A stretch of DNA of 36,901 bases from Methylobacteriaceae bacterium (GTDB taxonomy: Bacteria > Pseudomonadota > Alphaproteobacteria > Rhizobiales > Beijerinckiaceae): assembly GCA_019242655.1 (NCBI GenBank), contig JAFAVH010000373.1, forward strand, positions 1 through 36,901, in the 5' to 3' direction. Under the pieces are notes generated by a model that saw nothing but the letters and a program-made list of their open reading frames with translations, had not been told where the DNA came from and did not search any database. The translations under genes and the position numbers were made by a program. This document shows, piece by piece, positions 25,381-36,901 of the stretch. The stretch's first letter is position 1; each line of letters begins with the position of its first letter.

Positions 25381-26916
25381 TCAGGTTCGAAACGTCATCG
25401 CGTTCGGGTCGGCAATCAGTTGCGCCCACACCTGCGGCAGCATCTCCGGCAGATCTTCCGAGATGAGCCCGGGCCCGAAGCGCTTTGCTGCCTCACCATG
25501 CATCCAGACCGCGGCGGCGGCAGCGTCGAAGCCAAGCATGCCTTGCGCGAGCAGCCCGCCGATCATGCCGGCGAGGACATCACCTGCCCCGGCAGTGCCG
25601 AGCCACGCCGGCGCGTTGCGTGCAATTGCAGCGCGGCCGTCGGGATCGGCCACGACCGTATCCGCGCCCTTGAGCACGATGGTCGCGCCGGAGATACGCG
25701 CCGCTTCGCGCGCCCGCTCGATTTTCGCCCCCTCGCGAAGGCTTCCAAACAGGCGCGCGAACTCGCCCTCATGCGGGGTCAGCACGACCGGTCCGTCGCT
25801 CGCCTGGATAGCAGCAAAGAGCCGCTCCGGGTGACCGGCGAAACTCGTCAATGCGTCGGCGTCGAGCACATGCGCGCGCGGCTTTGTCCCGCAGCTCGGG
25901 GCAAGCGCGATTTCGACGAGCGCACAGGTCTCCTCGCCGACGCCCAGCCCAGGTCCGAGCACCACGCCGTTCTTACGCGGATCGGCGAGCAGCTTCGCCA
26001 GAGCGGCCGGTCCGTTCGCTTCGCGCACCATTATCGCAGTGAGCGAGACCGCGTGCGCAGTAAGCGCGTCGCGCGGCGAGGCGACAGTCACCAGTCCCGC
26101 GCCGGCGCGCAACGCGCCGCGTGCGGCAAGCCGCGCGGCGCCGGTTTCCGGCATCCTCCCGGACACGACGACTGCATGACCGCGTGTATATTTGTGGCCG
26201 CCGAGCTGCGGCAGGTGCAGAGCGTGATGCCAGAGACCGGGCTCGTTGATGAACGTCTTCGGCGCGATCTCGTCGAGCACGGATGTGGGGATGCCGATTT
26301 CGGCAAGGGTCGGATGCCCGCAATATGTCCGACCCGGCAGCAGCAAATGGCCCGGCTTCAATCGAAAGAAGGTGACGGTCTCCGTCGCATGCACACAGGC
26401 ACCACGAATCTGTCCACTTGTGCCGTCGAGCCCTGAGGGAACATCGACGGCGATGATCGGCCGGCCGGTCGCGCGGCCCCATTCGTCGATAGTTTCGACG
26501 GCGCGCTTTGCCTCGTCTTCGAGGTCGCGCCTAAGCCCGGCGCCAAACAGCGCGTCGACGATGAGATCTGTGTCGTTCAGCGCGAGCCCGTGCGTGTTTT
26601 CGACGTCGCCGTTCCAGCGATGCGCTGCCTCGGCCGCATCTCCTTTCAAGCGGCTTCCCGGGACAAGGGTCGCAACCCGGACATCGAAGCCGAACTCGCG
26701 CAAAAGCCGCGCGGCGACATAGCCGTCGCCGCCATTGTTGCCGGGCCCGCAGAACACCGCGGCGCGGCGTCCGCCCGCCGCATGCAGCCGCCGCGCGGCC
26801 ACGCGAGCGACCGCCGCGCCGGCAGCCTCCATGAGCGACATGCTGGCGATGCCGGAGGCTGCGGCAAGCCGATCGGCATCGGCCATCTCCGTCGTCGTCA
26901 GAAGCTCAACCGGCAC
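25381..26916 (-). CDS. nnrDE: Bifunctional NAD(P)HX epimerase / ADP-dependent dehydratase
   Basis: This 511-residue enzyme repairs hydrated NADH and NADPH. The N-terminal epimerase domain (about 1-215) starts ELLTTTEMADADRLAAASG and has the YjeF-N motif FCGPGNNGGDGYVAARLL. The C-terminal dehydratase domain, ribokinase-like, has GGHKYTRGHAVVVSG, VLGPGLGVGEE, LTPHEGEFARLFG, and the nucleotide site WLGTAGAGDVLAGMIGG. The fusion order is that of E. coli Nnr. It starts with GTG, five nt after the hybrid kinase stop, so the two genes are probably cotranscribed, which is not a usual partner for this housekeeping gene. Confidence 0.95.
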   Translation of the reverse strand: MPVELLTTTEMADADRLAAASGIASMSLMEAAGAAVARVAARRLHAAGGRRAAVFCGPGNNGGDGYVAARLLREFGFDVRVATLVPGSRLKGDAAEAAHRWNGDVENTHGLALNDTDLIVDALFGAGLRRDLEDEAKRAVETIDEWGRATGRPIIAVDVPSGLDGTSGQIRGACVHATETVTFFRLKPGHLLLPGRTYCGHPTLAEIGIPTSVLDEIAPKTFINEPGLWHHALHLPQLGGHKYTRGHAVVVSGRMPETGAARLAARGALRAGAGLVTVASPRDALTAHAVSLTAIMVREANGPAALAKLLADPRKNGVVLGPGLGVGEETCALVEIALAPSCGTKPRAHVLDADALTSFAGHPERLFAAIQASDGPVVLTPHEGEFARLFGSLREGAKIERAREAARISGATIVLKGADTVVADPDGRAAIARNAPAWLGTAGAGDVLAGMIGGLLAQGMLGFDAAAAAVWMHGEAAKRFGPGLISEDLPEMLPQVWAQLIADPNAMTFRT

Positions 26917-35550: not shown

Positions 35551-36901
35551 TTATGTCACCTCGAACCAGCCAGACAGCCCGCTGATCTGGTGCTCGATAA
35601 CATCGCAATTGATCGCCCATTTGCCGGGATTGTCGGCAACGAAAGCGACGCGTTTGGTGCGGCCCTCAGCGACGATGACGGCATTTCGCCAATAAGGCTC
35701 CCACCCATCGTCAAGATCGTGCAGGAGGCGCACGACGTGGCCATGGACGCGCATGTTCTGCGTCACCAGCGTTTTGTTGACAAAGCCGAGCGACACCGAC
35801 GCGCCCCGTTTCACCGAAAATAGCGGCTTGCCATCAAACCCGCCGGGCTGTCCGTTCAGCGTCCACAAGGTCTTTGCGCCGGCAGCGACGCGCGCGCTTC
35901 CGCCCTCGACAACAATGTCCACTTTCTTTGCCGCGGCAAGTGGGATGCCGGCCGGCAGCAACGGATTGAGCGGCAGCGAAGCGATCGCAAGGCGCGCGGG
36001 ACGCTTTTCCCCCTTTGTCTTCAATACGCAGAGATCGCGGTCGGCCTCGTTCATGCCGCGTAAGACGACTTTCGCGCTTTCGCTCTCACCATCCGGCAAA
36101 TCGAACATGAGATCGAAACGTGCGCCGGGCCCAACCGGAATCGTCTGCCGGACAGGCTCGAACGGATCGCAGGGCTGTCCGTCGATCGCCATGACAAACG
36201 GCTTGAATCCTTCGAAGGCGATGAACATGAATCGCGCATTGGCGACATTCGCCAGCCGCAGGCGAATCCGCGATCCCGGCGCGAATGTCTCTTGAATGGG
36301 CGCCGCTTGCGTGTTTGCCGTGAGGAGCGAGCCGATCCGCCCCGCCCCGCCGACGTCGGCAGGATTGCCGAAATCCTTGACGAGCATGCCCTGCTCATCG
36401 AGACGCCAATCATCGATGAGAAGCGCAAAATCGCGGTCTACCTGCGGCGGCGAAGGCTCGTCGACGATCAACAAGCCGTAAAGGCCGCGCGCGATCTGCT
36501 CGCTCGTGAACGGCGCAACAAATGGGCGATAGAGATAAAGCCCGCTATCGGGCACCTTGAAACGATAATCGAAAACGGCCCCCGACATCACCGGCTTCTG
36601 CGTAAGGCCCACAACACCATCCATTGCATTTTGGATGCGCACGCCCTGCCAGTGCAGGCTCGTCGGCTGATCGAGCTTGTTGAGGAGGCGCACCACCACC
36701 TCTTCGCCGACTTTGGCGTGCAGCAACGGCCCGGGCACTTGGCCGTCATAGCCCCACATATCCGTTTCGGATGCGGCGCCGGGCTTAATGCGGTGAGGAG
36801 ATTTCCGTGCCTCGAGGACGCGCATGCCTTCCGGTGCGGCGGCATCCGCTGGTTTTGCCGCGCCTTGCGCGCGGGCGGCGATCGGTAGCAACGTCGCCGC
36901 A
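35551..36901 (-). CDS. Multicopper-oxidase-fold protein with most copper ligands lost (5' end outside the window)
   Basis: The reading frame is open to the right edge, and the visible start of the protein (AATLLPIAARAQGAA) looks like the end of a signal peptide with an ARA cleavage site, so only the first residues are missing. About 446 residues show three cupredoxin-like domains. The usual copper motifs are altered: LHWQGVRIQ has Gln for the second His, LYLYRPF replaces the YHxH site, TQNMRVHGH has lost the first and second His, and INCDVIEHQISGLSGWFEV keeps the Cys and the last His but not the flanking ones. This resembles FtsP/SufI-type or other copper-poor multicopper-oxidase relatives in the periplasm. 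Ordinary laccase activity looks unlikely. The role is unknown. Confidence 0.85.
   Translation of the reverse strand, partial: AATLLPIAARAQGAAKPADAAAPEGMRVLEARKSPHRIKPGAASETDMWGYDGQVPGPLLHAKVGEEVVVRLLNKLDQPTSLHWQGVRIQNAMDGVVGLTQKPVMSGAVFDYRFKVPDSGLYLYRPFVAPFTSEQIARGLYGLLIVDEPSPPQVDRDFALLIDDWRLDEQGMLVKDFGNPADVGGAGRIGSLLTANTQAAPIQETFAPGSRIRLRLANVANARFMFIAFEGFKPFVMAIDGQPCDPFEPVRQTIPVGPGARFDLMFDLPDGESESAKVVLRGMNEADRDLCVLKTKGEKRPARLAIASLPLNPLLPAGIPLAAAKKVDIVVEGGSARVAAGAKTLWTLNGQPGGFDGKPLFSVKRGASVSLGFVNKTLVTQNMRVHGHVVRLLHDLDDGWEPYWRNAVIVAEGRTKRVAFVADNPGKWAINCDVIEHQISGLSGWFEVT

Follow-up and report, generated by a model that had tools for sequence, protein, structure and literature searches.

A copper-depleted clade of multicopper-oxidase-fold proteins in Beijerinckiaceae and its almost invariant loop

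Several proteins have been described in which the multicopper oxidase (MCO) fold was kept without copper. SufI of Escherichia coli, also known as FtsP, is reported to be a substrate of the Tat pathway with an MCO fold, 2 of the 12 copper ligands and no metal in the crystal, and has been proposed to act as a scaffold (PMC2661564). Insect MCORP and plant SKU5 are likewise described as MCO relatives that are copper-depleted yet maintained and in use; both are said to retain the two type 2 His, and MCORP is reported to have contained very little copper (PMC4203857). A further protein that should be considered is Melac13220 (WP_147019975.1) from Methylobacterium extorquens, which was published as an Fe2+-activated 'non-blue laccase' of about 50 kDa. 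As reported, the protein was colourless, lacked both the 610 nm band and the 330 nm shoulder and was EPR-silent, contained 0.71 Cu and 2.33 Fe per molecule, and bound Fe2+ in ITC with N = 1.81 and K of about 3.2e7 per molar. Oxidation of ABTS (kcat of 14.6 per second, with an optimum at pH 1.5) and of 2,6-DMP was reported, together with dye decolorisation and a five-fold activation by Fe2+, for protein expressed in the E. coli cytoplasm with 1 mM CuSO4 added, and the authors state that a type 1 site is present (PMC9456135).

Here, we analyzed an MCO-like gene in a window of 36,901 nucleotides, this being the entire stretch of DNA considered and also an entire contig (C48) of assembly G000, which comprises 434 contigs and is incomplete. 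Genes related to it are called multicopper oxidases or laccases on domain content alone, as Pfam calls all three domains. If our reading is right, this call is wrong for a gene family across most Beijerinckiaceae genera, and the family would add to SufI, insect MCORP and plant SKU5 another independent instance in which the MCO fold outlasted its copper. Beijerinckiaceae include many methanotrophs and methylotrophs, for which copper supply matters. In the open-licence literature searched, no description of the clade presented below was found.

Fold and copper ligands of the window protein

The gene is the last of the contig (35551 to 36900, minus strand) and presents an open frame of 449 residues to the stop, with the 5' end missing where the gene is cut at the contig end. 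The encoded protein belongs to the MCO superfamily, as three cupredoxin domains are found both by Pfam (Cu-oxidase_3, Cu-oxidase and Cu-oxidase_2 at 110.5, 55.5 and 36.5 bits, respectively, all above their cut-offs) and in the predicted structure. The structure comparison that a preliminary description of this DNA had proposed yielded an MCO fold predicted with confidence (AlphaFold2, mean pLDDT 94.9, pTM 0.92), the matches of which include CueO, SufI and Lac15. The nearest solved structures, by sequence (E 7e-69 to 7e-52) as well as by fold (Z 46 to 52), are Lac15 (4f7k) and the Pseudomonas MCOs 6vow and 6vox. In the sequence alignments, however, these three, unlike the window protein, keep full copper motifs, and they lack the H-x-L-D-D-G-W loop described below, of which 6vox presents a faint echo, TEPWFTD.

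SufI (2uxv_A) resembles the window protein in being an MCO fold largely without copper ligands, and matches the model with a Z of 43.0 and an rmsd of 2.3 over 388 residues at 18% identity, although CueO, at Z 42 to 44, ties with it within the error of the aligner. The comparison with FtsP made in the preliminary description is thus fair in kind but does not hold as an identification: the window protein scores 44.9 bits, as compared to an NCBIfam equivalog cut-off of 581, and other MCOs are closer in both sequence and fold. Among the identified neighbours of the window gene and of its relatives, whose neighbourhoods differ from one another, no cell-division gene was found. Judged by score, the clade to which the window protein belongs is independent of FtsP.

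At the 12 canonical ligand positions, the window protein reads H83, Q85, R125, F127, Q381, R384, H386, N431, C432, D433, H437 and L442 (HQRFQRHNCDHL, versus the canonical HHHHHHHHCHHM), such that 4 of the 12 are canonical. We take the assignment of these positions to type 1, type 2 and type 3 copper to follow CueO, and the corresponding columns of 24 intact homologues agree. The ligand alignment returned the four motifs, as they had been read in the preliminary description, in the form of LHWQG, YLYRPF, TQNMRVHGH and NCDVIEHQISGL, all on the minus strand. In motif 1 (HWQ, 36646 to 36654), H83 is kept and H85 is replaced by Gln, while in motif 2 (RPF, 36520 to 36528) both His are lost (R125 and F127), with a three-residue insertion relative to intact MCOs following. 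In motif 3 (QNMRVHGH, 35737 to 35760), Q381 and R384 take the place of the type 1 and type 2 His, respectively, and H386 is kept. Motif 4 (35575 to 35610) keeps C432 and H437, with N431 and D433 replacing His and L442 replacing Met. The earlier estimate that few ligands are left stands, except that of the two His in VHGH only H386, and not H388, aligns with a ligand. The expected loss of the trinuclear site is supported as well, and the loss involves the type 1 site too and extends to the whole clade.

A functional MCO, laccase or CueO would present the type 1 Cys-His-His and eight trinuclear His, as compared to the four canonical positions found here. In line with this, the window protein scored 109.2 bits against the CueO model (cut-off 525) and 128 against CopA (cut-off 478.95). 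Judged by its residues, four-copper chemistry is impossible for this protein by any known MCO mechanism.

The copper-depleted clade and its loop

To place the window protein, we considered 100 related genomes, 79 of which contained a match at E 1e-20 or better, and took 71 homologue rows from the genomes with matches and from the window's own genome. The best 80 of 244 named loci were then added, with 9 proteins being duplicated between the two sets. With duplicates removed, the final alignment comprised 142 rows, 24 with intact copper motifs and 118 depleted. When referring to these numbers, it should be noted that rows were picked by similarity to the window protein and that copper-intact relatives in other families are undersampled. 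Two depleted rows (L003 and L029) are truncated and were excluded from C-terminal counts, which hence refer to 116 of the 118 rows, and one further depleted row (L070) lies on a long branch.

The ligand columns of the 71 rows could be sorted into two groups by eye. In the tree of these rows, the 47 depleted ones formed one clade with a support of 100/100, and all came from the window's family; the 24 intact rows comprised 4 from the window's family and 20 from elsewhere in the order. The split persisted when all motif and loop columns were removed (SH-aLRT 100), requiring one change, as compared to 20.1 for shuffled labels, and the window protein grouped with the depleted rows, apart from the intact MCOs, in both cases. 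The search for close homologues suggested in the preliminary description thus found intact copper motifs solely in a separate sister group, the 24 rows, and in none within the depleted clade. Named records of Methylocapsa, Methylocystis, Methylosinus, Beijerinckia, Rhodoblastus and Methylobacterium identify the family as Beijerinckiaceae in the wide sense.

The 118 depleted rows present at most 8 of the 12 ligands, and most present 3 to 6. Of the 118, 12 retain the type 1 Cys and none the His beside it (the H433 column), and a complete type 1 set of His-Cys-His is found in none of the 116 rows covering the C-terminus. Of the columns conserved at 0.9 or more in intact rows, the 63 that hold no ligand still show a median frequency of 0.9 among depleted rows. 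The 12 ligand columns have lost constraint far more than these (Mann-Whitney p = 3e-6), with frequencies anywhere from 0 to 0.9, H386 (0.90) and H83 (0.82) being the least eroded. The ligand strings differ by lineage, with Methylocystis and Methylosinus mostly reading HHRSLHHHDDHL, Methylobacterium HHRLQHHSATRL and the window HQRFQRHNCDHL, a string that places the window protein among the more eroded members.

The Methylocystis and Methylosinus loci, including L112, have a motif 4 of their own, with HDDILEHE found lineage-wide in place of HCHxxxHE. In these proteins, the type 1 Cys and one type 3 His are replaced by Asp and five trinuclear His are kept, and a different metal site may be present.

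The clade genes are under purifying selection, as dN/dS (Nei-Gojobori) was 0.08 to 0.32 in all 12 pairs tried. Among the window gene, the same-genus gene and a second copy in the assembly, values of 0.08 to 0.11 were obtained, although dS is near 1 in the window's genus and these ratios are rough. One could suspect a decaying gene or an assembly error, given that the gene is cut at the contig end and that the second copy, 81% identical, lies on a short contig; we consider this extremely improbable, as these low ratios, and the same losses in independent isolates and metagenome-assembled genomes, argue otherwise. A pseudogene is ruled out by dN/dS, and a local sequencing or assembly error by the recurrence of the changes in other genomes.

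Column conservation revealed, between motifs 3 and 4, an almost invariant clade loop of consensus RLLHxLDDGWEPYW, which is not mentioned in the preliminary description and appears to be new. In the window, the loop comprises residues 391-404, R391-LLHDLDDGWEPY-W404 (35689 to 35730, minus strand; pattern match at 35689 to 35712), and fits the consensus. DDGW is found in 115 of the 116 depleted rows that cover the loop, with the remaining row reading DDGY, and in none of the 24 intact rows. Where conservation is confined to the depleted clade and absent from intact MCOs, the columns concentrate at residues 394-403, with F247, P255, P316 and I319 located elsewhere. By weight, the frequencies are 1.00 for R391, L393, D397, D398, G399 and P402, 0.99 for W400, 0.97 for H394 and 0.94 for E401, where the rest is Asp. 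In the AlphaFold2 model, the loop follows a short strand (390-393) and precedes another (407-410). The clade-specific segments, namely about residues 247-255 of domain 2, the domain 2/3 linker and the loop, may lie along the edge of domains 2 and 3 near the former type 1 site, which is our guess based on laccase structures.

The loop was found even where the ligands are gone. A gene in genome G031 (L196) retains 0 of the 12 ligands and still contains the loop (HPADDGWEPYWRD, with DDGWEPYW), indicating that selection has moved from copper to the loop; another, in genome G118 (L195), retains 2 of the 12 and reads DDGWVPYW. The loop is thus the feature that the gene family retains. It is the strongest lead to the function of the clade, as well as a clear clade marker that indicates where to mutate. 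Together with a more variable pocket, it sets the clade apart from SufI/FtsP, MCORP and SKU5, of which the latter two are eukaryotic, represent independent losses and keep two type 2 His, whereas the window protein has one.

Within the window's family, 171 of 298 genomes contain DDGWxxYW, and these represent 31 of 43 genera. This is an undercount, as one genus (g11) reads EPYF. In a sample of the order, DDGW[ED]P[YF] is found in 18 of 397 genomes; the window's family, with 20 genomes in this sample, accounts for 17 of them, and the remaining one (G667) comes from another family and is described below. In a sample of the class, 6 of 289 genomes contain DDGWxxYW, with only two matches in MCO genes, both from the window's family; the other four are three frames that appear DsbD-like by eye (DDGWKTYW, DDGWHIYW) and one frame of 40 residues. 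As the pattern is rare outside the family, the loop was rejected as a general motif. The DsbD-like proteins (L177, L178 and L182) contain a look-alike, LDDGWKTYWRNPGDAG or LDDGWHIYWRSPGEAG, that is close to the LDDGWEPYWRN of the clade and probably reflects convergence in a beta-sandwich turn.

One MCO-like gene from another family of the order (L193; G667:C2:674000-678000) combines 6 of the 12 ligands with the full DDGWEPYW loop (HPLDDGWEPYWLD). In a quick tree, this gene fell with the intact rows or between the intact and depleted groups, and may be an early branch or intermediate, or a transfer. It should be useful for dating the gain of the loop relative to the loss of copper.

Binding protein, metalloprotein or laccase

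In one genus of the family, the sense primer of Melac13220 matched 14 of 111 genomes at one mismatch or less, three of them exactly among the matches listed. Seven of the eight loci listed are open frames of 478-489 residues in which LHWHG and DDGWEPYW are present and motif 4 is degenerate, and the eighth is a short unrelated frame. The ligand string was HHRLQHHSATRL in all four primer-matched genes examined, as in five named Methylobacterium records, and the best of the four ends one mismatch from the antisense primer. Genes of this type are 45% identical to the window protein, keep H83, H85, H384 and H386, that is, four of the eight trinuclear His, compared to two in the window protein, and lack the other four together with the type 1 Cys and His. 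Based on these primer matches, Melac13220 very probably belongs to the depleted clade. If so, the missing ligands would explain why neither the 610 and 330 nm bands nor an EPR signal was observed, offering a sequence reason for the odd spectra of the published 'non-blue laccase'.

An ordinary, if non-blue, laccase, as published, would agree with the reported turnover of ABTS and the decolorisation of dyes. However, the primer-matched genes lack the type 1 Cys and His and half of the trinuclear His, the absent bands and EPR signal fit this loss of ligands, and the words 'motif', 'conserved' and 'copper-binding' do not occur in the main text of the report (PMC9456135). We thus consider it very unlikely that the clade consists of laccases.

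We rather favour, with somewhat better than even confidence, a Tat-exported periplasmic protein of MCO fold that is no longer an oxidase and has a binding or scaffold role, SufI-like in kind but not in family. As the sequences show, type 1 copper and most of the trinuclear site disappeared in an ancestor within the Beijerinckiaceae line. Purifying selection preserved the fold, the new loop between motifs 3 and 4 became almost invariant, and the old copper pocket was left free to drift, lineage by lineage. The folded protein would then be exported by Tat and present the loop to a periplasmic partner or ligand; most likely, the loop would bind a partner protein or ligand, and the protein would have a scaffolding or binding role like the one suggested for SufI/FtsP in E. 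coli. As for export, the first residues of the truncated frame, AATLLPIAARAQ (36865 to 36900, minus strand), are putatively the C-terminal part of a Tat-type signal peptide, as they align in register with the complete signal that the same-genus gene L074 encodes, MSDFTRRTLLQGVAATLLPIAAHAQ; the RR part falls outside the contig in the window and is present in the same-genus gene. A loose pattern found an RR motif in 107 of the 118 depleted rows, and most clade genes appear to carry Tat-like signals.

Two points argue against this scaffold or binding role. The reported oxidation of ABTS and 2,6-DMP by Melac13220 and its iron binding argue for a metal-dependent activity, and many members retain some His, as H83 and H384 are found together in 78 of 116 depleted rows, and H83, H85, H384 and H386 in 54 of 116. 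The clade could accordingly be a re-purposed metalloprotein that holds iron, or another metal, at the residual trinuclear His or at H394, D397, D398 and E401 of the loop and performs redox or binding chemistry, a possibility to which we give appreciable but clearly minor weight. A new metal site had also been considered in the preliminary description. It would account for the 2.33 Fe and 0.71 Cu, the ITC stoichiometry and the Fe2+ activation of Melac13220 (PMC9456135), the sense primer of which is exact in clade genes that keep the four His. In the loop, moreover, His, Asp, Asp and Glu/Asp are found at 94 to 100%. However, with H85 and H384 lost in the window protein and every His lost in L196, a site built from the old His cannot be shared by the whole clade. 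The abundance of Trp, Tyr and Pro in the loop also fits a protein interface. Moreover, iron carried by any protein could oxidise ABTS at pH 1.5. This is the pH at which the activity of Melac13220 peaks, and its expression was cytoplasmic, in E. coli supplied with copper sulphate (PMC9456135), such that the iron result, although the main evidence against a pure scaffold, is open to doubt.

In a more specific form, one bacterial family would have given up the copper sites of the MCO fold and made an iron protein of it, with a new metal site formed by the invariant loop, H394-x-L-D397-D398-G-W-E401-P-Y-W. We regard this as improbable; if true, the two irons of Melac13220 would be a first, unrecognised look at such a site, and even the member with zero ligands would bind iron. 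Whether the clade has an iron site or a scaffold role is directly testable.

Also improbable is the survival of a mononuclear, type 2-like copper site, made of H83 with H384 and neighbouring residues and serving periplasmic copper binding or delivery. The presence of this pair in two thirds of the rows agrees with such a site, as does the finding that insect MCORP and plant SKU5 likewise keep just the two type 2 His (PMC4203857). Yet the window protein has R384, its genus and many other lineages lack one of the pair, MCORP contained very little copper, and no copper-handling gene family was found in the conserved neighbourhood.

Gene neighbourhood and second copy

A trigger-factor family gene (tig), followed by clpP, clpX and lon, all identified by Pfam, lies divergently upstream in 68 of the 100 loci in which the MCO-like gene was called, with 2 of 102 loci (L090 and L171) left out, as a shadow frame outcompeted the MCO gene. 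By set, tig could be seen at 18 of 20 loci of one and at 54 of 80 loci of the other, with 9 duplicate proteins between the two. Most genera other than the window's have this divergent arrangement. The distance from the MCO-like gene to tig has a median of 493 bp and ranges from overlaps to about 5 kb, and the window's genus lacks the arrangement altogether. Because the distance varies so widely and the arrangement is absent in this genus, we take it as inherited gene order, and a chaperone role was not accepted on its basis.

The second copy in the assembly (L003, G000:C305:1983-3083) lies on a 3 kb contig, is 81% identical to the window protein over 366 residues and reads HWHG in motif 1. What lies upstream in the locus is found on contig C305 and what lies downstream on the window contig; the two parts are adjacent in a same-genus genome (G001), where the order is maeB, YciI-like, rhodanese-like, MCO, rlmE and ppx; the YciI-like and rhodanese-like names are our own assumption, given by eye. 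A second piece of maeB is found on G000:C334, 85% identical to that of C305. A true paralogue is unlikely, and the second copy and the two maeB pieces are more simply read as fragments of another, closely related genome that is probably present in the bin.

In the window, the MCO-like gene is convergent with an FtsJ-family (rlmE-like) gene and adjoins a Ppx/GppA gene. Further along the window, an NAD(P)H-hydrate epimerase/dehydratase gene (YjeF_N and Carb_kinase; 25384 to 26916, minus strand) is found. In other genera, genes of this family often lie downstream of the MCO-like gene as well (33 of 100 loci), a hint that an ancestral neighbourhood has been rearranged.
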